A stretch of 64,000 nucleotides of DNA from Bacteroidota bacterium. Its GTDB lineage: Bacteria > Bacteroidota > Bacteroidia > Chitinophagales > Saprospiraceae. The position numbers and the translations under genes were made by a program. Of this stretch, positions 4,191 to 60,086 are shown piece by piece. The notes beneath the pieces are model-generated. The model did not search any database. It was not told where the DNA came from and saw nothing but the letters and a program-made list of their open reading frames with translations. The number at the start of each line of letters is the position of its first letter. The stretch's first letter is position 1. Where the stretch lies: assembly GCA_029781865.1 (NCBI GenBank), contig JAKOVW010000079.1, positions 248,001-312,000 of the forward strand, given 5' to 3'.

Positions 4191-5642
4191 ATGAATATCA
4201 ATAGAACTTCGTTATTAACCATAGCCATTTGCGCCATAATTTGCGGCCTATCTTCTTGGTTTACAATACAATATGTATCCTCTGGTGCGGCAAAGTCTTT
4301 TGCGGAAAGTAAACTTGTCCACGAAGTAAACAACCCGCCGACGAATTATACAAATGAATCACTTGCATTGTTGGCCAGTCTGAGCAGTCATACCCAGGGA
4401 AATTTCATATTAGCAGCTCAGAAAAGCACGCCGGCAGTTGTCTGGATCGAATCAGCCACCGAAGAATCCGATAATATTTTCATGCTTCCGAATCGTGGAC
4501 TATCAACGGGTTCCGGGGTCATCGTTTCTCCTGATGGTTATATTGTCACCAATAATCACGTGGTTGAAAATGCGGATAAAATACAAGTCATACTCAATGA
4601 TAACCGGGAGTATTCAGCCACTCTGATCGGCACAGATCCAACCACAGACGTTGCGCTCATAAAGATTGAAGATTCTGGATTGCCTTATCTCGAATTCGGA
4701 AATTCCGATTCTACAATGGTTGGTGAATGGGTACTTGCCATCGGAAATCCATTAAGGCTCCAATCTACTGTCACCGCTGGTATAGTTTCAGCTAAAGCGA
4801 GAAATATAGATATACTGAATAACCAGCAATTTCGCATTGAATCATTTATTCAGACGGACGCCGTTGTTAATCCCGGGAATAGTGGCGGAGCTTTGGTTAA
4901 CATCAAAGGTGATCTAATTGGAATTAATACGGCAATAATGAGCCAAAGTGGCCGGTACGAAGGTTATTCCTTTTCCATTCCTTCCAATCTCGTAAAAAAA
5001 GTAATCGTCGATTTAAAAGACTATGGTGCTGTTCAAAGAGGATTATTGGGTGTCGTCATCGAAAAAGTAAATAGTGATCGGGCAAAAATTTATGGACTGA
5101 ATAATGTTACCGGAGTATTTATCAGCAATACCACAAAAGATGGAGCTGCAGATCTTGCCGGGCTAAAACCGGAAGATATCATTCTTGAAGTGAATCGTAC
5201 AAAAATTCAATCTGTACCTGAGCTTCAGGAAATTATTGGACGTCTTAGACCCGGTGCAAACCTTCAAATTAAATATTGGAGAGATGGTAAAACTCTATCC
5301 ACTGAAGCAACTTTAAAAAATCAGGCAAATACAACGGCATTGATCAGCACGAGGAGAGACCCGGCATTACTCGACATAGGCATCGAAGCCAGGGATCTTA
5401 CCCTCGAAGAAAAAACCTTCACCGGTAAATCAGGGGTCAAAGTGTTAAGTATCTACCAGGGAAGCATAGTTGAAAAGACCAACATGGCGCCGAATTATAT
5501 TATTATTTCAGTGAATGGTAAAAAAGTAAGCAATGTCGATGAACTCATCCATCAAATCAAAGCATCTGATAATGAAATACTGTTTGATGGTTTTTATGAA
5601 AAATACAATGGCCACTTCCCCTACCGGTTCCATAAGAAATAA
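4191..5642 (+). CDS. HtrA/DegP-type periplasmic serine protease with PDZ domains
   Basis: The protein (483 aa) has an N-terminal hydrophobic segment (about 8-30) that acts as signal peptide or anchor. It is followed by a trypsin-like domain with the full triad: His123 in TNNHVVENAD, Asp153 in TTDVALIKI and Ser231 in NPGNSGGAL. A PDZ domain lies at about 275-370 (GLLGVVIEKV to LQIKYWRDGK), and a second, more diverged PDZ-like region runs to the C-terminus. HtrA proteases degrade or refold damaged envelope proteins. The gene is monocistronic, with dapF divergent upstream and a carboxylase gene 65 nt downstream. DegP versus DegQ/DegS assignment cannot be made from sequence alone. Confidence 0.92.
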   Translation: MNINRTSLLTIAICAIICGLSSWFTIQYVSSGAAKSFAESKLVHEVNNPPTNYTNESLALLASLSSHTQGNFILAAQKSTPAVVWIESATEESDNIFMLPNRGLSTGSGVIVSPDGYIVTNNHVVENADKIQVILNDNREYSATLIGTDPTTDVALIKIEDSGLPYLEFGNSDSTMVGEWVLAIGNPLRLQSTVTAGIVSAKARNIDILNNQQFRIESFIQTDAVVNPGNSGGALVNIKGDLIGINTAIMSQSGRYEGYSFSIPSNLVKKVIVDLKDYGAVQRGLLGVVIEKVNSDRAKIYGLNNVTGVFISNTTKDGAADLAGLKPEDIILEVNRTKIQSVPELQEIIGRLRPGANLQIKYWRDGKTLSTEATLKNQANTTALISTRRDPALLDIGIEARDLTLEEKTFTGKSGVKVLSIYQGSIVEKTNMAPNYIIISVNGKKVSNVDELIHQIKASDNEILFDGFYEKYNGHFPYRFHKK

Positions 5643-46688: not shown

Positions 46689-48026
46689 TTATCTTCTCAT
46701 ATTCTTCATTTGATTCATCATTTGGCCCATTCCCTGACCTTTTGACATCATAAACATCATTTTTCGCATTTCTTCAAATTGCTTGATAAATGCATTTATT
46801 TCGTGAATATTCTTTCCGCAACCCGCAGCAATTCTGCTTTTTCTGGACATATTCAGGATTTCAGGATTTGCCCGTTCCTGCGGTGTCATCGATTGGATGA
46901 TTGCCTCAACTTTTGAAAAGGCTTTATCATCAATATTAATATCCTTTAACATCTTACCCGCGCCAGGTATCATGCCTAACAAGCTCTTCAAATCTCCCAT
47001 TTTCTTAATTTGTTGAAGCTGGCCCTGAAAGTCATTAAAATCGAATTTGTTCTGTTTAATTTTCTTTTCAATCTTTTTTGCTTCTGCATCATCAAATTGT
47101 TCCTGAGCCTTTTCCACCAAGCTTACAATATCTCCCATCCCCAGAATCCGTTGTGCCATGCGATCCGGATAAAAGACATCAAGGGCATCCATTTTTTCGC
47201 CCGTAGAAACAAATTTGATCGGCTTTCCAATGGTATACTTAACAGAAAGAGCTGCTCCGCCTCTGGTATCTCCATCCAGTTTGGTTAATACAACTCCATC
47301 ATATTGAATCCGATCGTGAAAAGCCTGTGCCGTGTTTACTGCATCCTGACCAGTCATTGAATCGACAACAAATAATGTTTCTGAAGGCTGAATGGCCTGT
47401 TTCACATTCGCTATTTCTGTCATCATTTCTTCATCGACTGAAGTTCTTCCTGCTGTATCTATGATGACTACATCCAATTTATTTGTCCTTGCGAAATCAA
47501 CTGCATGCCTGGCAATCAGTATAGGATCTTTAACATCCGGTTCCTTATAAATCTCAACCCCGACTTGCTCTGCCAATACAGTCAACTGATCAATTGCCGC
47601 CGGGCGGTACACGTCGCATGCCGTCAACAAAACCTTTTTATTCTTTTTGGTTTTGAGAAACAAAGCCAGTTTTCCCGAAAAAGTAGTTTTACCCGAGCCC
47701 TGAAGACCGGCAATTAAAATCACAGCCGGATTTCCATTTAAATTAAGCCCTTCCGCCTGTCCGCCCATGAGCTCAACCAACTCATCCATTACAATCTTCA
47801 CCATCAGCTCTCCCGGTTTGACTGACTTCAGCACATTGCGGGTACCAAGGGCCTGCTCCTTAACTTTATCGGTAAATTCCTTGGCAATTTTATAATTCAC
47901 ATCCGCATCGACGAGGGCACGGCGAATTTCCTTAATGGATTCTGCAACATTGAGATCCGTAATCCTGGCTTCTCCTTTTACACTTTTAAGCGCCAGTTCC
48001 AGGCGTTCATTCAAACTTTCAAACAT
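46689..48026 (-). CDS. ffh: Signal recognition particle GTPase Ffh
   Basis: Ffh (445 aa) binds the signal sequences of nascent membrane and secreted proteins together with 4.5S RNA. The N domain starts MFESLNERLELALKSVKGE. The G domain has GLQGSGKTTFSGKLA near 107-121, DTAGRTSVDEEMM near 187-199 and TKLDGDTRGGAAL near 245-257. The M domain ends in a Met-rich tail (MMFMMSKGQGMGQMM). The ATG at 48026 is chosen because the alternative at 48047 falls in a -7 box. No 4.5S RNA gene was recognised in the window. Confidence 0.95.
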   Translation of the reverse strand: MFESLNERLELALKSVKGEARITDLNVAESIKEIRRALVDADVNYKIAKEFTDKVKEQALGTRNVLKSVKPGELMVKIVMDELVELMGGQAEGLNLNGNPAVILIAGLQGSGKTTFSGKLALFLKTKKNKKVLLTACDVYRPAAIDQLTVLAEQVGVEIYKEPDVKDPILIARHAVDFARTNKLDVVIIDTAGRTSVDEEMMTEIANVKQAIQPSETLFVVDSMTGQDAVNTAQAFHDRIQYDGVVLTKLDGDTRGGAALSVKYTIGKPIKFVSTGEKMDALDVFYPDRMAQRILGMGDIVSLVEKAQEQFDDAEAKKIEKKIKQNKFDFNDFQGQLQQIKKMGDLKSLLGMIPGAGKMLKDINIDDKAFSKVEAIIQSMTPQERANPEILNMSRKSRIAAGCGKNIHEINAFIKQFEEMRKMMFMMSKGQGMGQMMNQMKNMRR

Positions 48027-48044
48027 AATTTCAAAATTAGTAGG

Positions 48045-48052
48045 CAAAGATA
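48045..48052 (-). promoter_or_regulatory. Candidate -7 promoter box for ffh
   Basis: The reverse strand reads TATCTTTG, matching TAnnTTTG, 18 nt before the chosen ffh ATG. The upstream alternative ATG overlaps it, which supports the shorter start. Confidence 0.45.
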
Positions 48053-48100
48053 CCTGCCTTCAAGTTTTAAGAAGAGCTAAATTAAGGTCTTTTAGAAGTT

Positions 48101-48775
48101 CTATTCAGCCGTAATTAAGGAGCCGTTCACCAATTTCATTGATTTGCAACTAGTTATTTCCTTGGCCCAACCATAAAGCGAAGTAGAGATAATCGTCATC
48201 CGCTCGGAAACCCTGTAAGATTGAATGATTTCCAGTACCTGTCTGCGGTATTTATCATCCAGTAAATCCAGGCTCTGATCCATTAAAAGCAATTTAGGTC
48301 TATGGACTAATGCCCGGGCCAAAGCAGTAAGATGCTGCTGGCTATAAGACAATTCCCTGACTTCTCTGCGAATACAATCTTTCAATGAAAAACGATCCAG
48401 CAATTCTTCAATCTGACTTTCGGAATCCAGATCCGTGATTCGGTCTGCTGCATTTAAAGCCATTGCCAGATTAGCCCTGACTGTTTTATTCTCAACCAGA
48501 TTTGATCCTTGTTTTGCATATCCCAGCTTTCTCCGAAGGGTTGCTAAATCCCCTTTGGATACAGGCATCATCGAATAGTCAAGTACAAATAATTGTCCGG
48601 AACTGTTGCCCGGATGTCCATATATAGCATTTAAAAGGGTTGTTTTACCGGTATGATTCAAACCAGTGATTTCAATAAATTCAGATTCATCAACCATCCA
48701 ATTTAAGTTAGCAATCAAGGGGTTTTCCTGCTGATAAATATTGAAATTAATGGTTTGAATGATGTGTTTTGACAT
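48101..48775 (-). CDS. Degenerate FtsE-like ABC ATPase
   Basis: The protein (224 aa) aligns by pattern with FtsE-type ATPases: Walker A GLNHTGKT at 38-45, Q-loop Gln near 89, RRKLGYAKQ near 81-89 and ALARALVHRPKLLLMD near 151-166. Key residues are changed. The signature is LSYSQ (142-146) instead of LSGGQ, the residue after the Walker B Asp166 is Gln167 instead of Glu, and the switch His region reads STSLYGW. ATP hydrolysis is therefore probably weak or lost. No FtsX-type membrane partner is adjacent. It lies 74 nt upstream of ffh on the same strand and is divergent from ccmE. Confidence 0.75.
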   Translation of the reverse strand: MSKHIIQTINFNIYQQENPLIANLNWMVDESEFIEITGLNHTGKTTLLNAIYGHPGNSSGQLFVLDYSMMPVSKGDLATLRRKLGYAKQGSNLVENKTVRANLAMALNAADRITDLDSESQIEELLDRFSLKDCIRREVRELSYSQQHLTALARALVHRPKLLLMDQSLDLLDDKYRRQVLEIIQSYRVSERMTIISTSLYGWAKEITSCKSMKLVNGSLITAE

Positions 48776-48935
48776 AGTCGGTTTTTCAAATTCAAAAATA
48801 GACTCAAGTTTTAACTAAAAACCAGCCCGCAAGTTATTTAAACTATTATTAACCCTGTTCTCAAATCCCCCCGGCTACAGTGAATCAAGCTTATTAAACA
48901 ATTGGCATTCAAATTCATTATTTAGTAATTAGGTT

Positions 48936-48943
48936 TAACTTTG
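48936..48943 (+). promoter_or_regulatory. Candidate -7 promoter box for ccmE-ccmF
   Basis: TAACTTTG matches TAnnTTTG and ends 7 nt before the ccmE ATG at 48951. This implies a nearly leaderless message. No -33 element at 19-23 nt was found. Confidence 0.4.
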
Positions 48944-48950
48944 CTACTCT

Positions 48951-49349
48951 ATGAAAAAATCATATATATTGGCTTTATCTCTAATAGGTGCAGCCATAAT
49001 ATTGCTGATTTCCGCATCAAAAGACTTTTCGACTTACTCCAGTTTTGGATCAGCAGCAAAAAGTGGTGGCCTGGTAAAACTGGTCGGGCATCTGGCGAAA
49101 GAAAAAGAGATTTATTACCAACCGGAAAAAGAAGCCAACTATTTCAGCTTCTTTTTAACAGACAAAGATGGTGTTACCAAACAAGTAATTCTTAGGGCTC
49201 CTAAACCTCAGGATTTTGAATTATCCGAACAAGTGGTATTAACCGGTACCATGAAAGAAGATATATTCGAAGCCAAGAGTATGCTTTTAAAATGTCCTTC
49301 CAAATACAAAGACGAAGAAATCTATATTAAGTCCACTACAGCTTTATGA
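48951..49349 (+). CDS. ccmE: Cytochrome c maturation heme chaperone CcmE, Cys-type
   Basis: The protein (132 aa) has one N-terminal membrane anchor (about 4-22) and an OB-fold domain. CcmE carries heme in the periplasm before transfer to apocytochrome by CcmF. The usual heme-binding His is replaced: the C-terminal motif is LLKCPSKYKDE, i.e. CxxxY (Cys near 114, Tyr near 118), the variant known from archaea and some delta-proteobacteria. The domain is short and the tail after the motif is about 14 residues. It overlaps ccmF by 4 nt, so the two are one unit. Confidence 0.85.
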   Translation: MKKSYILALSLIGAAIILLISASKDFSTYSSFGSAAKSGGLVKLVGHLAKEKEIYYQPEKEANYFSFFLTDKDGVTKQVILRAPKPQDFELSEQVVLTGTMKEDIFEAKSMLLKCPSKYKDEEIYIKSTTAL

Positions 49350-52171
49350 ATAATGTTCAATACGTAGGTGAACATTTGTGGGTTCATTATTGCGGACGGT
49401 TTCTCGTCTTACTCGCATTTTTCAGTGCCTTGTTTTATTTGATTGCATTTATTAAAAATTATAAAGAGCTTTCTCCGGTATGGAGCAAATCCATTAAGTC
49501 AGCTTTCCTGATACATCTCGTTTCCGTTTTCGGGATCATCATTCTCATTTTTTTTATGATGACCCGTCATTACTACGAATACCAATATGCCTGGGCACAC
49601 GTATCAGATGAGCTTCCCATGAAATACATCGTATCTGCTTTTTGGGAAGGTCAGGAAGGAAGTTTTCTTTTATGGATGTTTTGGAATTGTCTACTGGGAT
49701 CATTCTTTTTTAGATTCAAATCAAAATTGGATGCTTCGATCCTGATGGTGATACTTGCTGTGAATCTCATCTTAACTACAATGTTACTTGGTATATATGT
49801 AGGTGAGTCCAGGATAGGTAGCAGTCCATTCAGTTTATTAAGACACACAATGAATATTCCTTTATTCAGTAATGCTGAATACACTAAATTGATTAAGGGC
49901 AATGGTTTGAATCCACTGCTTCAAAATTATTGGAATATCATTCATCCTCCTACCCTGTTTCTCGGTTTTGCTTCAACGATTGTTCCTTTTGCCTATGCCA
50001 TTTCCGCTTTGCTGTATAAAGAGTATAAGAACTGGATCCGTCTTGTTTTACCCTGGGCTTTATTCTCCGGATTTATTTTAGGTACCGGAGTCCTGATGGG
50101 CGGTGCCTGGGCATATGAAGCGTTGAGCTTTGGTGGATACTGGGCCTGGGATCCGGTAGAAAACATGTCATTGGTACCCTGGATTGTTATTATTGCCGGA
50201 ATACATACGAATCTGATTTCCAAATCAACGGGTTATTCAATTCGGGCAACCTTCATTTTTTATTTACTTGCATTTATCCTCGTTGTATATTCTTCATTTT
50301 TGACGCGTAGTGGCATTCTGGGTGACAGTTCGGCACATGCTTTCACACAAATGGGTCTTGAATGGCAGTTGGTCATTTTTTGCCTTATTGTAACAATTGC
50401 CTCTGTACTCTTTCTGATCAAACGATTTAAGGAAATCCCGACAAAACAAAAGGAAGAACAATTTATTTCCAGAGAATTCTGGATGCTGATAGGTAGTCTT
50501 ATATTACTATTTGGTGCATTGCTTATCAGTTTTACTACTTCAATTCCCGTTTATAACAAGTTGCTCGATTTGATCGGAAAACTCTTAAACACCTCTATGG
50601 AGAGCTGGCACAGAAGTACGCCATTAAATCCGGTTGCGCATCACAACCAATATCAAATTTGGATTGCCATTTTTACAGGAATGCTCTCTTCCTTTTCACT
50701 GTATCTGAAATATCTTGATGACCGGGAAAGTAAACTTGGAAAACTATTTTTCATCAATACAGGAATAAGCCTGCTATTAAGCAGTATAGCGTTTGGCCTT
50801 ACTTTTAATTCGTTTGAAAAGCTGCACTGGAGTCATGCTCTTTTTCTTTGGACTGCCTGGTTTGCCATAATTAGTTCTTTCATTTATCTGATTCGTGTCA
50901 TACAATTCAAATGGCGATTAGCGGGCCCTGTGCTTTCGCATGGTGGATTTGGTATATTATTACTGGGAATATTATTTACAGGAATAAATAAAAATATCAT
51001 TTCACACAATCGCTTTGCGCAACAAGACCTGCTGCCCGGACAAGCTGATGAAGAACTCTCCAAACATTTGACTTTGATAAGAGGTCAAAAGATGTTTATG
51101 AATGGATACTGGGTGATGTACGAAAAAGATACCTTCATTTTGAAAAGCAGAATTTACGATCTGAAAGTCTGGAAGGAAGATTCGTTGAACCATATCACAG
51201 AATCGTTTATGTTGCATCCGGAAGTTCAATATGATAATAAACTAACTAAAGTTGCAGCGTCAAATCCATCGACCAAACATTATATCAATAAGGATATCTT
51301 TTCTTTAATTGCACAGATTCCTCAAACACAGACTGACGCTAATGCAGCACAGAAAGCAGAAGACAGCCTGGACTACAAATTATATACATGCAAACTAAAT
51401 GATACCGTCTTTACAAAAAATCATTATTTGATATTAAAAGAGATCTCCAATGATTTTCAACCTCAGGACTTAGAATCAAAACCTTTTGATCAGAAGTTAC
51501 AATTGACCTTTGAAGTTAGAAAACCAGAAGACAGTACCTTCCAGATTAGCAAACCAGCAATTATTTTCAGGAATAATCTGATCTATAAATTTCCGTCACA
51601 CGTGGATGCTTTACAGATGAGAGTTCAAATTCCGGATTCTGCATATGATGCATTTATGCCATCATTTGAAAACCTGAAATTGACTCAGATCGAATTAAAG
51701 AAAGGCGATTCTATTGAAATCGGAAGTGGTAAATATTTAAAACTGCTTGGTTTTTCAAAGGAAATCGATCCAGATATCCTGGTGCCAAAGGAAAATGAAA
51801 TTGCTTTATCTGCGCAGGTCGAATTCAAAGACCATGAATTTACTGCCAAACTGAATCCGATATTCATGATACGCGACAATCAGGTAATATCGCTGCCAGT
51901 TCAATCCATTATTCCCGGAATCACCCTTAAGTTTTCAAAAATAATTCCTGAAACCGAAACGATGCAATTTCAATATGCACTACACCCTGATTTCAAGAGT
52001 GTTGCGATTCCATTTCTCGTAGCTGAAAATGCGCCAAGAAATGATTTCATTGTAATTCAGGTCATTGAATTTCCATGGATCATTCTGGTTTGGCTGGGAG
52101 GAATAATCATGTTAAGCGGTTTACTCTTATCTTCATACCTTAAAAGATATCCTAAACTGCATGCAGCATGA
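49346..52171 (+). CDS. ccmF: Cytochrome c heme lyase subunit CcmF
   Basis: The protein (941 aa) is a polytopic membrane protein of the CcmF/CcsA family. The heme-handling WWD-like motif is FGGYWAWDPVENMSLVPW near 268-285. HPPTLFLGF near 193-201 and AFWEGQEGSFLLWMFW near 93-108 are also diagnostic. It is about 300 residues longer than the E. coli protein. The extra lies in a large periplasmic region at about 560-905, closed by a final membrane helix (WIILVWLGGIIMLSGLLLSS). CcmF ligates heme to apocytochrome c. It is co-transcribed with ccmE; other ccm genes are not in the window. Confidence 0.92.
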   Translation: MNNVQYVGEHLWVHYCGRFLVLLAFFSALFYLIAFIKNYKELSPVWSKSIKSAFLIHLVSVFGIIILIFFMMTRHYYEYQYAWAHVSDELPMKYIVSAFWEGQEGSFLLWMFWNCLLGSFFFRFKSKLDASILMVILAVNLILTTMLLGIYVGESRIGSSPFSLLRHTMNIPLFSNAEYTKLIKGNGLNPLLQNYWNIIHPPTLFLGFASTIVPFAYAISALLYKEYKNWIRLVLPWALFSGFILGTGVLMGGAWAYEALSFGGYWAWDPVENMSLVPWIVIIAGIHTNLISKSTGYSIRATFIFYLLAFILVVYSSFLTRSGILGDSSAHAFTQMGLEWQLVIFCLIVTIASVLFLIKRFKEIPTKQKEEQFISREFWMLIGSLILLFGALLISFTTSIPVYNKLLDLIGKLLNTSMESWHRSTPLNPVAHHNQYQIWIAIFTGMLSSFSLYLKYLDDRESKLGKLFFINTGISLLLSSIAFGLTFNSFEKLHWSHALFLWTAWFAIISSFIYLIRVIQFKWRLAGPVLSHGGFGILLLGILFTGINKNIISHNRFAQQDLLPGQADEELSKHLTLIRGQKMFMNGYWVMYEKDTFILKSRIYDLKVWKEDSLNHITESFMLHPEVQYDNKLTKVAASNPSTKHYINKDIFSLIAQIPQTQTDANAAQKAEDSLDYKLYTCKLNDTVFTKNHYLILKEISNDFQPQDLESKPFDQKLQLTFEVRKPEDSTFQISKPAIIFRNNLIYKFPSHVDALQMRVQIPDSAYDAFMPSFENLKLTQIELKKGDSIEIGSGKYLKLLGFSKEIDPDILVPKENEIALSAQVEFKDHEFTAKLNPIFMIRDNQVISLPVQSIIPGITLKFSKIIPETETMQFQYALHPDFKSVAIPFLVAENAPRNDFIVIQVIEFPWIILVWLGGIIMLSGLLLSSYLKRYPKLHAA

Positions 52172-52970
52172 TATAGTCTTAATCGGCTCCGGCAATCTGG
52201 CAACAGTACTTGGATTAAAACTCTCCCTTTCCGGTCAAAAAATAGTTCAGGTATTTTCGAGAAATCCCGAGCATGCTAAGCTTTTAGCAGACCAACTAAA
52301 TTGTACAGGAGTCCATTCACTTGATCATCTAAATAAAAATGCTGATCTGTATTTGATTTGCATTAAAGATGATGCGATTGCTGATTTGAGTAGCAAGCTA
52401 TCCAATCAACTCACTCCTGATAAATTAATAGCACATAGTTCCGGTGTAAACTCCCCTGATATCATAGACGCTTATTTTAAAAACCGGGGACTCTTCTACC
52501 CTTTGCAAAGTTTTTCAAAATTGAAAACGCCCAACTGGTCTGAAATACCTGTATTTGTCGAAGGCAATCCAACAATCCTGCCAGTGTTGAAAGACATTGC
52601 AGGCAAAATCAGTCCGGAAGTTTTTATCATGAGTGATATTATTCGCACGCACCTTCATCTTGCTTCTGTTTTTGCAAATAACTTTTCCAATTACAACTTA
52701 GTCATTGCCCAAAAAATTCTGGAAAAAACAAATGTACCTTTCAAAGTATTAAAAAGCCTGATGACTGAAACGGTTGAAAAAGCTTTTGCCATGAATCCTC
52801 ACAGTGCACAAACCGGGCCTGCCAAAAGAGGTGACTTGCACAGTATTGAAAAACACATCCGGTTGCTTGTACAGGAATTTCCTGAATACAGGTCACTTTA
52901 CAAAAAATATTCCCAAATTATTCAACAAGACTTTAAGCATGAGAATCCTGGGCCAGATTCCGCATCCTGA
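52161..52970 (+). CDS. Rossmann-fold DUF2520 dehydrogenase-like protein
   Basis: The protein (269 aa) has an N-terminal NAD(P)-binding Rossmann domain with IVLIGSGNLATVLGLKL at about 5-21 (GxGNxA motif) and a C-terminal helical DUF2520 domain (about 125-260) with LHLASVFANNFSNY and NPHSAQTGPAKRGD. This pairing is common across bacteria, and homologs are annotated as F420-dependent or NADP oxidoreductase-like. The substrate is unknown. The start overlaps the ccmF stop by 11 nt and its end overlaps the next gene by 32 nt, so it belongs to the ccmEF transcript. Confidence 0.85.
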   Translation: MQHDIVLIGSGNLATVLGLKLSLSGQKIVQVFSRNPEHAKLLADQLNCTGVHSLDHLNKNADLYLICIKDDAIADLSSKLSNQLTPDKLIAHSSGVNSPDIIDAYFKNRGLFYPLQSFSKLKTPNWSEIPVFVEGNPTILPVLKDIAGKISPEVFIMSDIIRTHLHLASVFANNFSNYNLVIAQKILEKTNVPFKVLKSLMTETVEKAFAMNPHSAQTGPAKRGDLHSIEKHIRLLVQEFPEYRSLYKKYSQIIQQDFKHENPGPDSAS

Positions 52971-53181
52971 ATTAATTATTCAGGTATTCAAATCCGGAAA
53001 TAAATTTATTCTAAAGTTTGAAGCCGGACCTTTTGAACAAAGTTATAAATTTATGGAAACAGAACGACTGTCTTCATTTGAAGATTTCAAAACTATAGTC
53101 ACTGAAGAATTAATCAGAGAGATCTATTCCATTTTTGATCAAATGAATACCCGTTATATTTTGATATCATCCAAATTATAA
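52939..53181 (+). CDS. Small conserved protein of unknown function
   Basis: An 80-residue protein beginning MRILGQIPHPELIIQVFKSGNKF, then LKFEAGPFEQSYKF and a C-terminal helix (FEDFKTIVTEELIREIYSIF). Short proteins with the same pattern are found widely in Bacteroidota, as I recall, but no function is known to me. The first 32 nt overlap the DUF2520 gene, a sign of translational coupling. A longer frame begins at 52804 inside DUF2520, but its extra residues are an out-of-frame shadow. Confidence 0.7.
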   Translation: MRILGQIPHPELIIQVFKSGNKFILKFEAGPFEQSYKFMETERLSSFEDFKTIVTEELIREIYSIFDQMNTRYILISSKL

Positions 53182-53208
53182 ATGTTCATAACAGATTAAT
53201 ATAGAAAT

Positions 53209-53778
53209 ATGAATTGGCGTATCTCAATCCAGATAATCCTGGTATTAATCACTATGAATTCTTGCTTAAAAGATACCGACCTGCCAACTGATTATTTTGG
53301 CGGACCCAGTGAATTTGATATTGAATTTCAATCCGGTTCATTTACCGGAAGAACCTATCACCTGGTCAGTAGGACCATATATCATGATCATGAATACCTG
53401 AGCTCTGCAAATATTCAAAAAATATTAAGTCAACCCATAGAGGAATATCCAACTAATACACTCGCTGGTAATAGTTTTATTAATTGGGCGTGGAAAGGTG
53501 ACACCACTGCCGGGCAATTCTCCTCAATATTTGCCAACGATCCAACTATTTCCAAATCAGGTGATCTTCAAATGATCTTTTCAAATGGTGACGAATTTAT
53601 TAGCCAGATTCCAAAAGGCGCCTCTATATCCATAGCGTCTTATGGAAGTCCCCAGGGTTCAATTACAGGAAGTCTTACATATACCTCTACTTTGGATTAC
53701 AAGTTTTCCGGAACGAGCAAAAGGGAAACGGCTAGTTTGTTTATACAGTTCAAAATCAAGAGAGGACCAAACCTGTAA
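53209..53778 (+). CDS. Lipoprotein of unknown function
   Basis: The product (189 aa) has a lipoprotein signal: MNWRISIQIILVLITMNSC with the lipobox Cys at 19, followed by LKDTDLP. The rest is beta-rich and has many Ser, Thr and Gly. Residues such as FDIEFQSGSFTGRTYHLV suggest a calycin- or immunoglobulin-like beta fold, but I recognise no family. It starts 27 nt after the small conserved gene and could share the transcript. Confidence 0.65.
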   Translation: MNWRISIQIILVLITMNSCLKDTDLPTDYFGGPSEFDIEFQSGSFTGRTYHLVSRTIYHDHEYLSSANIQKILSQPIEEYPTNTLAGNSFINWAWKGDTTAGQFSSIFANDPTISKSGDLQMIFSNGDEFISQIPKGASISIASYGSPQGSITGSLTYTSTLDYKFSGTSKRETASLFIQFKIKRGPNL

Positions 53779-53897
53779 AAGCCGGATTCGTTTACCTTTT
53801 ACTAAAGAAAGTCTAAGCCAGTGTTAATAGGTGAGTTTTCGTGTTAATCATTTAATAATGATGATTCAAACAGTATCGCAGACAAAAGTAAATCTTC

Positions 53898-54040
53898 AAA
53901 TTTACGTTTGGTTTTATTTAACTCACCAATTAATTAATTAATTTTATTATGAAAAACTTGTTTTTATTATTCGCTTTGACTCTTTGCCTTGGATTTGTAA
54001 ATGCACAAACCAATCCGGCTCCGGCTGCTAAACCAATGGA
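53898..54040 (+). repeat. Duplicated leader and signal region, copy 1
   Basis: This stretch, from the -7-like box through the leader with TTAATTAATTAATT to the signal peptide and first KPMD codons, recurs at 54551-54691 with few changes. Together with the paralogous coding parts it shows a tandem gene duplication that includes the promoter. Confidence 0.75.
53903..53910 (+). promoter_or_regulatory. Candidate -7 promoter box for the first KPA gene
   Basis: TACGTTTG matches TAnnTTTG, 38 nt before the ATG. The second copy has TACGTTCG at the same place, one mismatch. Confidence 0.4.
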
Positions 54041-54281
54041 TAAAGCTGCTGCTAAACCAATGGAAAAACCAGCTGCTAAGCCAATGGATAAGACTGCTGC
54101 TAAACCAGCTGAGGCTGCAAAACCAGCTGCTGATGCTAAAAAAATGGACAAAACTGCTAAACCAGCAGATGCAGCAAAACCAGCAGACACTGCTAAGCCA
54201 GCAACTGAAGGTAAAAAAACCAAAAAAGCAAAGAAAGCTAAAAAGATGGCACCAGCTACTCCAGCAGAAAAGAAGAGCTAG
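53949..54281 (+). CDS. Secreted KPA-rich low-complexity protein, copy 1
   Basis: The product (110 aa) has a signal peptide (MKNLFLLFALTLCLGFVNA) and then a low-complexity chain of Lys, Pro, Ala with recurring AAKPMDK and AAKPA units (about 25-90). A Lys-rich end (KKTKKAKKAKKM) and the short tail EKKS follow. It carries no Cys in the mature part. The function is unknown; a disordered, basic periplasmic protein is the safest description. It is a paralog of the gene at 54600-54983. Confidence 0.72.
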   Translation: MKNLFLLFALTLCLGFVNAQTNPAPAAKPMDKAAAKPMEKPAAKPMDKTAAKPAEAAKPAADAKKMDKTAKPADAAKPADTAKPATEGKKTKKAKKAKKMAPATPAEKKS

Positions 54282-54599
54282 TATTTCTTTTAATCAAAAA
54301 TGAATTATCCAGGGGATTGAATGCATATTCAATCCCCTGTTTTTTTTATTCATTTCCTTCAAATCATTCAAAATACAACAGCTATAAAATTAAAAATGAG
54401 GCAGTTACCCGCAGCTAAATATCAAGATTCAAAAAAGATGGGCTGCATGCTCATACCTTCACATTAAATCTATTCCTATTAATTGTTAAGAGCTTCTAAA
54501 TATATACTCTGGAAAGAGCTATTTCTTTAAAATACCAAATTTATTAGTGAATTTTACGTTCGGTTTATTTAATTCACTAATTAATTAATTAATTTTATT
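54282..54599. other. 318-nt intergenic region between the KPA paralogs
   Basis: It holds the terminator of copy 1 at its left and the duplicated leader of copy 2 at its right (from 54551). The middle, 54350-54550, shows nothing recognisable. Confidence 0.55.
54311..54347 (+). terminator. Intrinsic terminator after KPA copy 1
   Basis: Arms 54311-54322 and 54327-54338 form a perfect 12-bp stem with a 4-nt loop, followed by a G and an eight-T run (54340-54347). It lies 30 nt past the stop. Confidence 0.9.
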
Positions 54600-54691
54600 A
54601 TGAAAAACTTGCTTTTATTATTCGCTTTCTCTCTTAGCTTAGGTTTCGCAAACGCACAAACCAATCCAGCACCGGCTGCAAAACCAATGGA
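54551..54691 (+). repeat. Duplicated leader and signal region, copy 2
   Basis: Counterpart of 53898-54040, with the same TTAATTAATTAATT leader, start context TTTTATTATG and signal peptide. Differences are scattered point changes. Confidence 0.75.
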
Positions 54692-54983
54692 CAAACCAGC
54701 TGCTAAGCCAATGGAAAAACCAGCTGCTAAACCTATGGATAAGCCTGCTGCTAAACCAGCTGACGCTGCAAAACCTGCTGCTGATGCTAAAAAAATGGAT
54801 TCCAAAATGGCTGACATGAACACTAAAGATCACGTTTGTACAGCTGCTTGTAAAGATGGAAAACACGTTTACGCTCATGGTGAAAAAGGCCACACTTGTA
54901 CAGCTGCTTGCCATAAAGCAATGGGAAAATCAAAGAAAACCAAAAAAGCTGCTGCTGCAGCTCCTGCTGAGAAGAAAAGCTAA
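54600..54983 (+). CDS. Secreted KPA-rich protein with His/Cys module, copy 2
   Basis: The product (127 aa) shares its signal peptide and KPMDKPAAKPMEK repeats with copy 1. From about 79 it has a new segment: DHVCTAACKDGKHVYAHGEKG and HTCTAACHKAMG, two HxCTAAC units. This supplies four Cys and six His within about 33 residues, then a Lys-rich tail ending EKKS as in copy 1. The two CTAAC units share a run of 15 identical bases. The pattern suggests metal binding or disulfides outside the cytoplasm, which is inference. The gene is followed by a strong terminator. Confidence 0.75.
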   Translation: MKNLLLLFAFSLSLGFANAQTNPAPAAKPMDKPAAKPMEKPAAKPMDKPAAKPADAAKPAADAKKMDSKMADMNTKDHVCTAACKDGKHVYAHGEKGHTCTAACHKAMGKSKKTKKAAAAAPAEKKS

Positions 54984-55011
54984 GCTTTTTAAAAGCCTAA
55001 ATAATACTTAC

Positions 55012-55044
55012 AGGGATCGATATTTTCATATCGATCCCTTTTTT
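55012..55044 (+). terminator. Intrinsic terminator after KPA copy 2
   Basis: Arms 55012-55022 and 55029-55039 form an 11-bp perfect stem with a 6-nt loop, followed by a T-run to 55044. It lies 28 nt past the stop. Confidence 0.88.
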
Positions 55045-55080
55045 ATTTCATGCACCACCGATCTGTTAAATTGAATCGTA

Positions 55081-55794
55081 TTAAATTAACCCATTGGCAA
55101 GCTTACTGAAACACCTGTCTAATTCTTTCTTGTAAATTCTGCCAACAGGCAATCGGGTTGAGCCCACAAGAATTTGAGCCGCGCTTACAGACTGAATTTT
55201 ATCCATGCTGACCAGATACGATTTATGGATCCTTACAAATTGATCTTTTCCGAGTACATTATATAAAGAGCCAATTTGATATTTGGTTACTATACTGGAA
55301 TCGAGCAAATGAATTCGCACATAGTCTTTTAAGCTTTCTATATAAACTATGTCTTTCAGGTATATCTTAACCTGGCGCTTATCGACATTAAAAAATAGAA
55401 AAGCAGGTTCGTTTACTATTGATTCCGCATATTGTTTTTTGAGCGCATGCAACTTCATTACTTTTTCAATGGCCTGTAAGAAACGCTCCAATTCAATAGG
55501 CTTCAAAAGATAATCAACTACATTTAGCTTATAACCCTCCAGAGCAAAATCATCATACGCGGTGGTAAGAATTGTGTAATAATCCCCTTTAAGCGACTTT
55601 ATAAATTCAATACCATTCATTTTGGGCATATTTACATCGACAAACAAAACATCCATTTTTTCATTCGCAAGCACATGAAGTGCGTCCAAACCATTTTCAC
55701 AAACTGCCCGAAGGTTTAATTGCGGAGCATGGACTAAATAGTCTTGTAGTATTTTGACGGCTAATGGCTCATCTTCTAAGATCAAACAATTCAT
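55081..55794 (-). CDS. LytTR-family response regulator
   Basis: The product (237 aa) has a receiver domain (about 1-120) with acidic pocket E7-D8-E9 and phospho-acceptor Asp53 (LFVDVNMPKMNG), and Thr and Lys in ILTTAYD and LLKPI. A LytTR DNA-binding domain follows (about 140-230; KIYLKDIVYIESLKDYVRIHL and DQFVRIHKSYLVS). It is the output partner of the histidine kinase that overlaps its 5' end by 26 nt. Target genes are unknown. Confidence 0.92.
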   Translation of the reverse strand: MNCLILEDEPLAVKILQDYLVHAPQLNLRAVCENGLDALHVLANEKMDVLFVDVNMPKMNGIEFIKSLKGDYYTILTTAYDDFALEGYKLNVVDYLLKPIELERFLQAIEKVMKLHALKKQYAESIVNEPAFLFFNVDKRQVKIYLKDIVYIESLKDYVRIHLLDSSIVTKYQIGSLYNVLGKDQFVRIHKSYLVSMDKIQSVSAAQILVGSTRLPVGRIYKKELDRCFSKLANGLI

Positions 55795-56872
55795 TTCCTC
55801 TATATGAATTTAAATTAATAAATAACTCCAATTTAAATTGATTCTGGTCTATATAATATTTAAAATTAAAATCTTTATAAAGAAGTTTGATTTGCTTTTG
55901 CACATTGGATAGTCCAGTTCCTTTTTTTAGCACCTCATTTGAACAAACCGGATTAGTCGCAATCAGTGTTAATCTCCCATTAATTAAATTCAATTTAAAA
56001 GATGCAATTGCTCCGTGTACGTCACAATGTTTATAACTATTTTCGACAATTGGCAGTAATATTAAGGGTGTAATCTGTTCTTCTTCTTTATCAATATTGA
56101 TTTCCAATTTCACTTCCATTCTGTTTGAGAAACGCAACTGCTGCAACTCAATATAATCGGCAATCATTTTCAATTCATCTTTAATTGAAACTGTTTTTTG
56201 CACAGTATCATAAAGAGTATATCGCATGAGTTTTGAGAGCCTCATAACGGTATCGGCCGTATTCTCGGATTTCTCTCTGGCTAATGAATAAATACTATTC
56301 AGGGTATTAAACAGAAAATGAGGATTAATTTGGGACTTCAAATGCATTAATTCCGCCCTGCTTCGTTCTATTATTAATTTTTTTTCTTTTTTAATTAACT
56401 CTGATCTCAATTTATATAGCTTAACAGAAACTGCAATACCTGCAATTTGCACAAGATCCAACAAAGAATAAAAATAACGGGCTACAAAGGTTGGAACAGA
56501 CAAGATTACATTCTTGTCTTTATATATGCATGGCCAGATAATGAGATGCATCATCATTCGCATCAAAAAAGCGCCAACCAATAAACTTATTATGGTAAAC
56601 AGAATAAATTGGACTCTCCTCTTATCATCTATCCAGGAAGGGATCAGGCCATACAATATAAAATAGACAACGGTAATTTTAATAATCAATAGCAAAAAAA
56701 CCGCTAAGACGGCTTTATAAAATAAACTTAACTCAGGATGCGATAAAAAAGATGGAGAAAGATACAATTCGTTGTATAAACAAATTATATAATAAATACC
56801 CCAGAATAAAAAATGATAACCCAGTCTATTTTTCACCTTTTCAAAATTGATCAATTTCTTTAAAATCAACAC
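55769..56872 (-). CDS. LytS/AlgZ-type membrane sensor histidine kinase
   Basis: The protein (367 aa) has about four membrane helices (about 20-150), a short coiled linker (KKEKKLIIERSRAEL) and the His_kinase family domain. The phospho-acceptor His185 is in LKSQINPHFLFNTLNSIYSLA. Near the end, PIVENSYKHCD (N box) and a KGTGLSNVQKQIKLLY G box form the ATP site. There is no separate sensor domain, so the signal is likely sensed in the membrane. It forms an operon with the LytTR regulator. Confidence 0.92.
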   Translation of the reverse strand: MLILKKLINFEKVKNRLGYHFLFWGIYYIICLYNELYLSPSFLSHPELSLFYKAVLAVFLLLIIKITVVYFILYGLIPSWIDDKRRVQFILFTIISLLVGAFLMRMMMHLIIWPCIYKDKNVILSVPTFVARYFYSLLDLVQIAGIAVSVKLYKLRSELIKKEKKLIIERSRAELMHLKSQINPHFLFNTLNSIYSLAREKSENTADTVMRLSKLMRYTLYDTVQKTVSIKDELKMIADYIELQQLRFSNRMEVKLEINIDKEEEQITPLILLPIVENSYKHCDVHGAIASFKLNLINGRLTLIATNPVCSNEVLKKGTGLSNVQKQIKLLYKDFNFKYYIDQNQFKLELFINLNSYRGNELFDLRR

Positions 56873-57038
56873 AAAATAAATACAAACAACAAGAATTTAC
56901 CCCCGAACAACAATTGCCAATAAAATTCAATTCGCACCTGGATAGGTAATCCGTGTTGTTTGTCATGTGCAAACTGCCGTTATGATACTTTTTATTTATC
57001 TCACGGCGACACACGGTATCTTGAGCAAAAAACAAACA

Positions 57039-58787
57039 ATGCTTAGGAATTCTTATTTGATTTTGTCGTTGGTTATCTTTATTTCAACTGTAAAAGGACA
57101 GTATTTTACTAAAATAAACACAGGTCCGTTGGTCAATTCACCTGGAGATTCAAGAAGTGTGAATTGGGTGGATGTTAATAATGATGGTTGGGTCGATTGT
57201 TTTATCAGCAATGGTCCAACTGGCGGACAAAACAATTCACTTTTCATCAATGATACGCATGGCAATTTTACTGCTGTTATCAACGACCCTATAGTATTGG
57301 ACAACAAACCTTCAGATGGAGCAAGTTTTGCGGATCTCGATAATGATGGAGACCTGGATGCTTTTGTGGTTAACTGGTATGGGGTTAACAAACTGATGTA
57401 TATAAATCATGGCAATGGTAGTTTTACACAAATCGATACAGGAGTCATTGTGAATGATGGAGGATATTCAGAAACCGCTGCCTGGGGAGATTATGATAAA
57501 GATGGCTTTGTGGATCTGTACATTACCAATAGTGCCGGAGATCGCAAAAATTATTTATACCATAATAATGGCAATTCCTCTTTCACAAAGATCATTACTG
57601 GTTCAATGGTTACAGATGCCCTTAGTTCACGAAGCGTAAACTGGACTGACATCGATAATGATGGTGACCCCGATCTTTTTGTGAGTAATGAGAACAATCA
57701 AAATGAAAACATCTATAGAAATGATGGAATGGGATTGTTTACGAAACTAAACACAGGCCCTCTTCTTACAAATCTGGGTAATACGATGAGCAGCAGTTGG
57801 GCGGATATTGATAATGATGGGGATTTAGATGTATTTCTGGCAAATGATCAGGGTTTTAACTCACTTTTTATGAACAACGGATCATTTAATTTTACCAAAT
57901 TAGTTAATGACACTTTGGTCAAAACACCTTCACGCTCATTTAGCAGTGCATGGAGCGATATAGACAATGATGGTGATTTGGATTTATTTGTTACAAATGC
58001 GTTTGGAACTGCAAAAAAACAATTGAACTTTTTATATATAAATGATGGTGCCGGTCACTTCACAAGAAACAGTTCAGATATAGTTGCCCGGGATTCATCC
58101 TGGTCGTATGGCTGCGCTTTTGGTGATTATGATAATGATGGCTTCGAAGATCTCGCTGTGGCAACTTGCAGATATGGAGGAATCGATTATCCTGATTTCC
58201 TTTATCATAACAATGGAAATTCAAACCACTGGATCACCATTCAATTATCCGGCACTTATAGCAACCGTTCAGGGATCGGCACTAAAATACGGGTGAAAGC
58301 AGTCATCAATGGAGCACATGTCTGGCAAATGAGAGAAATTTCAGCACAAACATCCTATTGCGGACAAAATGATATGCGTGTTCATTTCGGACTTGGGATT
58401 GCAACTCTGATAGACTCTATTCAAATTGAATGGCCCCGTGGGATGATAGAATTCTATAAGGACATCCCGGCAGACCAATTTTTACACTATTCTGAAAAAA
58501 TAGTGAATACAACCAATAATTCCGGATTGAATAATCTGGAGTTTAATGTCTTTCCAAATCCTGGTTCAAAATCGATTAGTCTTTCCTTATCCAATGATTA
58601 TTTCCACGAAAGTGATCAGGTCCTAATATGCGACATCCATGGCAAGGTGCTTATCCGCATTACACCAATTCATACCCGTATATTGAGCATTGAGCTGACA
58701 AAATATAAATTGCACACTGGAACATACTTCATAAAACTCAATAGAAACGGGATGGAAATGATTCGGAAATTCATTTTAGAAAATTAA
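57039..58787 (+). CDS. Secreted VCBS/ASPIC repeat protein with T9SS sorting domain
   Basis: The product (582 aa) has a signal peptide (MLRNSYLILSLVIFISTVKG). From about 25 to 400 it has a run of FG-GAP/VCBS beta-propeller blades with calcium-type motifs (DVNNDGWVDCF, DLDNDGDLDAF, DYDKDGFVDLY, DIDNDGDPDLF, DIDNDGDLDVF). An ASPIC/UnbV domain follows at about 405-480 (NSNHWITIQLSGTYSNRSGIGTKI). The end (FNVFPNPGSKSISLSL ... GTYFIKLNRNG) is a T9SS sorting domain. It probably acts on the cell surface in adhesion or binding. ATG 57039 was chosen over an upstream one, as it starts the signal peptide. Confidence 0.88.
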   Translation: MLRNSYLILSLVIFISTVKGQYFTKINTGPLVNSPGDSRSVNWVDVNNDGWVDCFISNGPTGGQNNSLFINDTHGNFTAVINDPIVLDNKPSDGASFADLDNDGDLDAFVVNWYGVNKLMYINHGNGSFTQIDTGVIVNDGGYSETAAWGDYDKDGFVDLYITNSAGDRKNYLYHNNGNSSFTKIITGSMVTDALSSRSVNWTDIDNDGDPDLFVSNENNQNENIYRNDGMGLFTKLNTGPLLTNLGNTMSSSWADIDNDGDLDVFLANDQGFNSLFMNNGSFNFTKLVNDTLVKTPSRSFSSAWSDIDNDGDLDLFVTNAFGTAKKQLNFLYINDGAGHFTRNSSDIVARDSSWSYGCAFGDYDNDGFEDLAVATCRYGGIDYPDFLYHNNGNSNHWITIQLSGTYSNRSGIGTKIRVKAVINGAHVWQMREISAQTSYCGQNDMRVHFGLGIATLIDSIQIEWPRGMIEFYKDIPADQFLHYSEKIVNTTNNSGLNNLEFNVFPNPGSKSISLSLSNDYFHESDQVLICDIHGKVLIRITPIHTRILSIELTKYKLHTGTYFIKLNRNGMEMIRKFILEN

Positions 58788-59051
58788 TTAAAAATACCGA
58801 AAGCCAAAATAAACCATTGCTTATTCTTGCTTGTCAACATACAGCTGGCGACTGATTAATTTTAAAAAACGCTTAAGTCACTAAATTAAAAAATTCAGTT
58901 CCCATAGAATTCCCTTGCAACTCAATATAATTTTATTTGGTTTAGTGACAACCAAAGGAGACATTATTTATTTTTCATACATTTGCAAACCCAGGTCAGG
59001 TGATGGCACAAAATAGATGCAAATCTGATTTATTCCAGAGCGATGGATGTT

Positions 59052-59684
59052 TCATTTTTTAATTCTCTTCATTCTTATTTTGTATATTTTTGATGCAAAT
59101 ACTTTAGGCGCCGCAAATGCAACAAATAAAATGGAATACATGAGCAAAGGAACCAGAATGGAAACAAAACAAAGCAGAAAAGCAATGAGGTTATAGAATA
59201 TGGCATAGCGATAAATAATTTTATAAGCGCTATAATATTCTCTTTGGCTATCTTCAATCAAACGTGCATTATAGGCATAGGTGCATAACAAATCGGCTGC
59301 AACCGAAATCAAAATATAATTTAATCCAAACATAGCCAATGCAGTACCACCTTCCTTATCCAGGTATTCCGCCAAAACAGCTGTAGGAAATGGAGTTAAG
59401 GTTACCACGAATAAAAGAAAACCATTAATCCACATAAAATTAGTGTCTATTCTATGGACGAACTCAAGAGCTAAATGATGGTTTATCTAGCAAACCATTA
59501 TCGTAACAAAACCTATGGCAAAAGCCAGAAAAGATTGCCAGTGATGCAAACAAGTCGCTATCAGTTTTTCATCTGACTTAATATGCAAGGTGCTAATCAA
59601 CTCCAACACTAAAAGGGTTATTGCGATGGCAAATACACCATCGCTAAAAGCCTCAATTCTTGTCGTTTTTTTCTGTGTTTCCAT
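59052..59684 (-). pseudogene. TMEM175-family (DUF1211) channel gene interrupted by an amber stop
   Basis: The frame encodes a TMEM175-like channel protein of about 210 residues. The first part reads METQKKTTRIEAFSDGVFAIAITLLVLEL, with the family FSDGVFAIAITLL motif. At 59487-59489 the codon is TAG. The frame continues without shift: INHH at once, then HRIDTNFMWINGFLL, PFPTAVLAEYL and four more membrane segments to 59052. Homologs carry Trp just before NHH, so TGG to TAG is the simplest explanation. Bacterial TMEM175 proteins are potassium-permeable channels. It may be a fresh pseudogene, a sequencing error or a read-through gene. Confidence 0.82.
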
Positions 59685-60086
59685 AAACTACCCCGGTATT
59701 CAATCCCTGACTTACAAAGCCAATTTAAAGGTCAAAGTAAGTAAAAATCAAGATACTAAAGGCAGTCAATCTCCGGCTATCGCATCTGACGGAATTCCTG
59801 ACAATTTCAATTCGCGAAAGTCTTATGAAGTCAGCTGTTGATAGGTACAGACCTGTTTATTCAACATCACAATTAATTAATGAATACCAAACCATAGGAG
59901 GTTTACGCAATAAACGCGAGGCCAATTTACAGATGACATAAATACAAATCACATTGCATATCAATAAGTTAAGTAAGTTACAACATGATTTTACAATTCG
60001 GTAACATCGTTTTACAACGAAAAGGAGTGGCTGATTTTGGTTGAACAATACCTTTACTTCATTATTTCACCATATAAGTTCCTATC
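59685..60086. other. 402-nt intergenic region
   Basis: No gene is supported. A frame at 59590-59841 overlaps the TMEM175 remnant in antisense and has no family pattern. No hairpin followed by a T-run was seen. Confidence 0.5.

Follow-up and report, generated by a model that had tools for sequence, protein, structure and literature searches.

A recurrent twin HxCx3C module marks an unnamed Bacteroidota family of proteins that are probably exported and metal-binding

Annotation misses small exported metal binders, which are too short and too low in complexity to be picked up. The stretch of DNA analysed here (hereafter the window: 64,000 nucleotides, G000:C79:248001-312000, within a 4.5-Mb Bacteroidota genome) raises a question of this kind. 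Two tandem genes, A and B, encode similar exported-looking proteins with basic, repetitive linkers, and the second also carries a compact Cys/His-rich module. Did gene B gain this module, as a first-pass annotation of the DNA had proposed, or did gene A lose it, and what might the module do? Through sequence comparison, profile searches and a survey of gene neighbours within the phylum, we find that the module recurs well beyond the window and describe the evidence pointing to a role in metal handling outside the cytoplasm. With its eight conserved Cys/His positions and, at some loci, mer, DUF326 and DUF6789 neighbours, the module offers a concrete way into metal handling by unnamed envelope proteins of Bacteroidota.

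Anatomy of the tandem pair

Gene A (53949..54281, plus strand; 110 aa) and gene B (54600..54983, plus strand; 127 aa) were delineated from the open reading frame list, supported for gene A by its codon-position differences from gene B and for gene B by protein and profile searches. They are joined by a direct repeat of 250 nt at 88% identity, the copies 651 nt apart (53899-54148 and 54550-54799), that spans a leader of about 50 nt (53899..53948 before gene A and 54550..54599 before gene B, both on the plus strand), the signal peptide and the greater part of the linker, in line with the earlier description of a pair sharing leader, signal peptide and repeats. The Lys-rich tails are also homologous in the alignment, and the difference is confined to the middle, where a KPA-repeat stretch of gene A (54150..54212, plus strand) stands in the position of the 28-residue twin HxCx3C module of gene B (54828..54911, plus strand; delimited by alignments A1 and A2 and by column counts), with homologous flanks on either side of a non-homologous core. 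Gene B therefore comprises a signal peptide, a KPA/KPMDK linker, the module and a Lys/Ala tail. The open reading frame list and the alignment both place the module in the second gene only, as first described; the four Cys then counted stand, whereas the six His in about 33 residues are five in 34. Within the module, the two HxCTAAC halves form a 26-nt repeat, 60 nt apart and 85% alike. Over 200 aligned coding bases, the two genes differ at 6, 1 and 15 sites in codon positions 1, 2 and 3, respectively, a pattern suggesting that each frame has stayed coding from the duplication onwards.

Both proteins have hydrophobic N termini with similar signal peptides, judged by eye to span approximately residues 1-19 and to end ...NA/Q, which agrees with the Bacteroidetes Q-rule (PMC5837995). 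The product of gene B is predicted to be exported through this Sec signal peptide, with Gln at +1.

Each gene has its own terminator-like hairpin, as had been claimed: one with a 13-bp stem and T-run 3′ of gene A (54310..54339, plus strand) and one with a 12-bp stem and T-run 3′ of gene B (55012..55039, plus strand), which are the longest stems in a terminator scan that returned 5 sites against 2.2 ± 1.5 in shuffles. Upstream of the ATG, the two genes remain homologous for about 50 nt, beyond which their similarity is no higher than background. The leader carries one promoter-like element, TACGTTTG in gene A and TACGTTCG in gene B; TAnnTTTG is the Bacteroidota −7 promoter consensus. A sigma-70 scan gave promoter-like sites not above shuffles (4 versus 6.2). 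The proposal that the duplication took in the promoter is supported only in part, for the single promoter-like element inside the homologous leader and not for a whole promoter. A protein search of the window's own genome matched only the places of genes A and B, and Rfam gave no match at gathering score over 53700-55100.

Recurrence of the module across Bacteroidota

Searching genomic contigs with gene B alone recovered at least nine loci; among the matches listed, seven carry the module and two the linker only. L010 and L011 were dropped from the relatives because they match the low-complexity linker only, and L012 and L013 were also dropped. Profile searches, all within the phylum of the window and over phylum, family, class and genus samples that overlap, detected the module at E 1e-4 in 3 of the 395 genomes sampled from the phylum, 3 of the 298 from the family, 19 of the 294 from the family to which G528 belongs and 2 of the 197 from the class that includes G400, and at E 0.01 in 4 of 9 genomes of the genus. 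Gene B, itself a row of profile A1, matches that profile at 2.2e-19 (71.9 bits).

These searches amount to 26 distinct whole genomes with the module (G000, G677, G687, G688, G544, G400, G528, G1061 and 18 others), including G874, in which a stop falls inside the match. Three named loci from metagenome-assembled genomes (MAGs), L004, L006 and L007, match no other module locus and bring the total to 29 genomes and 30 loci, G688 having two; L003, L005, L008 and L009 coincide at the DNA level with the loci of G688, G758, G829 and G799 and were counted once. The first-pass view that gene B had acquired a novel module is not supported: the module recurs in the 26 genomes and three MAG loci, and three congener loci share the layout of gene B.

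The relatives carry one to three modules per protein behind hydrophobic N termini, with a lipobox seen once (L080, by eye). Across them the linker varies in both length and sequence, and the module is kept. This variation weighs against the notion that the basic KPA/KPMDK part common to A and B does the work, for instance on envelope polymers or nucleic acid, with the module as an accessory. That notion draws on the existence of gene A without a module and on the retention of the basic part in both genes, where the first two codon positions have changed little; we regard it as very improbable.

NCBIfam contains no curated model that reaches cut-off for gene B, L032, L004, L009, L022, L031 or L023, Pfam none for gene B or L105, and no paper tied to the module was found in the open-access library searched, in keeping with the first-pass view that the pair has no named family. 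The module is best called the mark of an unnamed family of exported, probably metal-binding Bacteroidota proteins. Matches far below cut-off were set aside: L004 to LpqS_Mycobact (NF052429), a putative copper-homeostasis lipoprotein (16.7 bits, cut-off 35), and L009 to penta_MxKDx (TIGR02953; 19.0, cut-off 41) and BRANT His-rich (NF047414; 18.4, cut-off 44). Eclosion hormone (PF04736) was likewise rejected, at 19.2 bits for the module alone and 16.9 for gene B against a gathering score of 25, as was a Pfam match to zf-NF-X1 below cut-off. Sequence matches of the module in the PDB are weak: five, the best at E 0.06, with SmbP at 9.2.

The module peptide had no match at E 0.1 in plasmid and phage collections, and of 16 pattern matches in viral contigs none was confirmed as a relative. 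Among the relatives, a module protein of L079 (1498-1932) carries additional Cys-rich repeats that separate a degenerate module from an intact one. In L031, another small exported-looking protein (5149-5508), encoded near a module gene, combines a low-complexity linker with a short motif that repeats, HLKADGTPDKRYK; it has no Pfam or NCBIfam match.

Conserved positions of the module

Column counts were made over 33 distinct modules in a 29-column table. Degenerate or interrupted modules were left out (the first one in L079, the half module in L025 and, in G874, L081 with its stop in the match), and the two of G1061 are likewise not among the 33. The module motif is H-x-C-x3-C ... G-E-K-G-H-x-C-x3-C. 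As the extraction pattern fixed four Cys and a Glu and left the His columns free, the invariance of Cys and Glu in this table proves nothing; the same residues are also invariant in alignments A1 and A2, the rows of which were hand-chosen. In the free columns, all 33 modules have His at column 2; column 14 is His in 27 and Cys in 6 with no other residue, column 18 is His in 32 and Cys in 1, and column 23 is His in 32 and Gln in 1. Swapping between His and Cys is typical of metal ligands, and a column restricted to these two residues is as expected of a ligand position. Each of the six His-to-Cys modules comes from a different locus; the loci are of related type, and few evolutionary events may lie behind the changes. 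Several non-ligand residues are also conserved (Gly 12 in 31 of 33, Ala 17 in 29, Gly 19 in 31, Lys 21 in 30 and Gly 22 in 32); with Gly 12, Ala 17 and the GEKG stretch kept nearly as well as the candidate ligands, the conservation may reflect a fold or a partner.

Together, the two HxCx3C elements and the two His between them provide eight candidate ligands, which could form two four-ligand sites or one cluster. AlphaFold2 models reached mean pLDDT values of 54.0 (8 rows) and 54.6 (9 rows) with no confident fold, and thus offer no site geometry in support of ligation; such poor models fit, without showing, a protein that is disordered in the absence of metal.

The same residues can be read as a structural or redox element, in which two CxxxC disulfides brace a stable hairpin, or thiols scavenge oxidants, and no metal is involved. 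Export implies an oxidising place, where Cys may form disulfides, and the number of Cys in gene B is even. Small Tim proteins, with twin Cx3C hairpins held by disulfides, provide a precedent. The complete retention of His at column 2 speaks against this reading, as do the His-to-Cys changes at columns 14 and 18, which produce five-Cys modules, and the Mer and DUF326 neighbours described below; we consider it unlikely. Conservation, His/Cys swapping and gene neighbours are the basis of the metal reading, and the earlier picture of a basic, low-complexity secreted carrier with a metal- or thiol-type module is supported.

Gene neighbours of the module loci

Telling neighbours occur at 13 of the 30 loci: MerTP with GDCCVxC at two, DUF326 at one, DUF6789 with an ECF sigma gene at four (one of them shared with mer) and PafA at seven. 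The other 17, the window among them, have none of these in the stretch read.

The two mer-type loci, G544 (L025) and L007, are supported by family models for both MerTP (254.6 and 284.5 bits, cut-off 180) and GDCCVxC (107.6 and 110.9 bits, cut-off 40). In G544 the order is ECF-type sigma (recognised by 72.5% identity to the sigma gene of G687), ArsR, MerTP, GDCCVxC, a gap, a three-module gene and DUF6789; in L007 it is MerTP, GDCCVxC and a two-module gene. A related arrangement—ECF-type sigma, other small genes, a two-module gene and DUF6789—is seen in L004 (a Paludibacter MAG), G687 (L032) and G1061 (L105). At all four module loci with DUF6789 (G544, G687, L004 and G1061), this membrane-protein gene lies directly downstream of the module gene, 7 to 61 nt away on the same strand, an adjacency that suggests a first testable role for DUF6789. 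No DUF6789 was found in the window's own genome at E 0.001. In G965, a Cys-rich, copper-storage-like DUF326 gene lies convergently beside the module gene (51.1 bits, cut-off 20.4); its product scores 37.9 bits against the Csp1 model, below the cut-off of 100.

Placement beside mercury- and copper-handling genes at some loci suggests that the module probably binds metal outside the cytoplasm. The reverse test tempers the mer association. A search for MerTP found 67 matches, spread over 60 of the 296 genomes; at the 30 of these 67 loci examined, with flanks of up to 1.5 kb, the module was found at none (0/30); open reading frames at 4 of the 30 fit a loose Cys/His pattern, and none is the module. 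MerTP was therefore rejected as a general partner of the module, and the mer link is occasional.

PafA lies directly upstream of the module gene on the same strand in G829, G799, G806, G752, G708, G528 and G938 (loci L008, L009, L024, L066, L067, L068 and L075), with gaps of 57, 49, 79 and 72 nt in L008, L009, L068 and L066. Scoring with the PafA family model covered L009 (748.1 bits against a cut-off of 650); the others were recognised by 59 to 100% identity to that protein. PafA requires zinc, and the module protein might act as a chaperone that supplies this metal to exported metalloenzymes, this alkaline phosphatase among them, and not as a detoxifying sponge. The order PafA then module gene holds in 7 of the 19 module genomes of the family of G528, across four genera, two of the genomes being labelled Chitinophagaceae. 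In the remaining 12, no PafA was seen within flanks reaching 1.5 kb at most and in some cases shortened by a contig end, none was seen by eye beside the window pair, and the shared order could be plain vertical inheritance; we judge zinc supply to be quite a long shot.

Loss or gain of the module

Three congener loci, one in G677 and two in G688, encode a signal peptide, a Pro/Thr/Ala/Lys-rich linker, the module and a basic tail, which is the layout of gene B. With module genes both inside the genus and beyond it, loss is the simpler account, requiring a module-bearing ancestor and one loss event, and we think it likely that gene A lost the module and that gene B did not gain it. Counting against loss, the module was not found in 5 of the 9 congener genomes, and the congener module genes lie in other surroundings. 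The earlier description of the pair is mostly right once corrected; its interpretation was right about the kind of protein and most likely wrong about its novelty and the direction of change.

Proposed function and comparison with known systems

We favour, with moderate confidence and from sequence evidence, a model in which gene B encodes an exported, largely disordered metal sponge or chaperone and gene A is its duplicate without the module. Behind the signal peptide, the protein would have a basic, disordered Ala/Lys/Pro linker, then a single twin HxCx3C module and finally a basic tail. This module would wrap or fold around thiophilic metal, one ion or two—Cu(I), Zn(II), Hg(II) or a similar ion—held through its eight conserved Cys/His positions, and the protein would buffer the metal or hand it on outside the cytoplasm, as the unrelated SilE does with silver. 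Gene A would have kept the leader, signal peptide, linker and tail, and lost the module, with linker repeats in its place. Both the metal binding and the buffering role of gene B are conjectural at this level of analysis. The window pair, one member with the module and one without, is a natural control for the contribution of the module.

A broader history is conceivable, and we put it forward tentatively. The module would define an undescribed Bacteroidota family of exported soft-metal proteins, one subgroup of which would form a regulated unit of ECF sigma, multi-module secreted protein and DUF6789 membrane protein, once merged with ArsR-MerTP-GDCCVxC. The secreted protein of this unit would pass metal to DUF6789, acting as a transporter, and the window pair would be a branch in which one copy was reduced to a module-free partner.

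SilE is described as disordered without metal, using His and Met motifs, and folding upon silver binding (PMC5008109). The likeness to gene B is that of a small exported metal sponge by proposed mechanism, gene B having low-confidence models only; the difference lies in the His/Met motifs of SilE as against the paired HxCx3C of the gene B module. Gene B did not match the SilE/PcoE family model in Pfam or NCBIfam. SilE is the nearest working analogue, and no relative by any test applied here.

Other comparisons are more distant. MerP, MerTP and HMA proteins share the handling of thiophilic metals, and MerTP neighbours two module loci; HMA differs in being a folded domain with CxxC. Bacterial metallothioneins are similar in concept as short Cys/His-rich metal binders; they are cytoplasmic and CxC-rich, whereas gene B is predicted to be exported and has Cx3C. 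Gene B matched neither the HMA/MerP nor the metallothionein family models in Pfam and NCBIfam.

Genomic setting of the pair

Upstream of the pair, CcmF-like and DUF2520-like genes (gene names in this section were assigned by eye) also adjoin in congeners where a match was found. A lipoprotein gene like that ending at 53778 follows in G677, G044, G600 and G688, and was not seen in G645 or G145; after it comes a BamD-like gene in G044, G600 and G688 and another gene in G677. The 1.5 kb read after the lipoprotein in these four congeners contains no tandem pair, which places the window pair just past a synteny break at approximately 53778-53900.

Among the open reading frames of 48000-60000, judged by eye with three window proteins family-scanned, no metal-related genes adjoin the pair, and no sil genes were seen by eye in the window region. 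Downstream, 55081-56872 encodes, as judged by eye, a histidine kinase paired with a LytTR response regulator; the best congener matches of the regulator reach at most 45% identity, and a second copy in its own genome 43%. The genome's own MerTP is on another contig, L063 (G000:C45:1-14000), with an RND-efflux-like gene (by eye). Over 1051 bp, L063 matches G418, a genome of another family, at 99.3%, which points to recent transfer or a misbinned contig.
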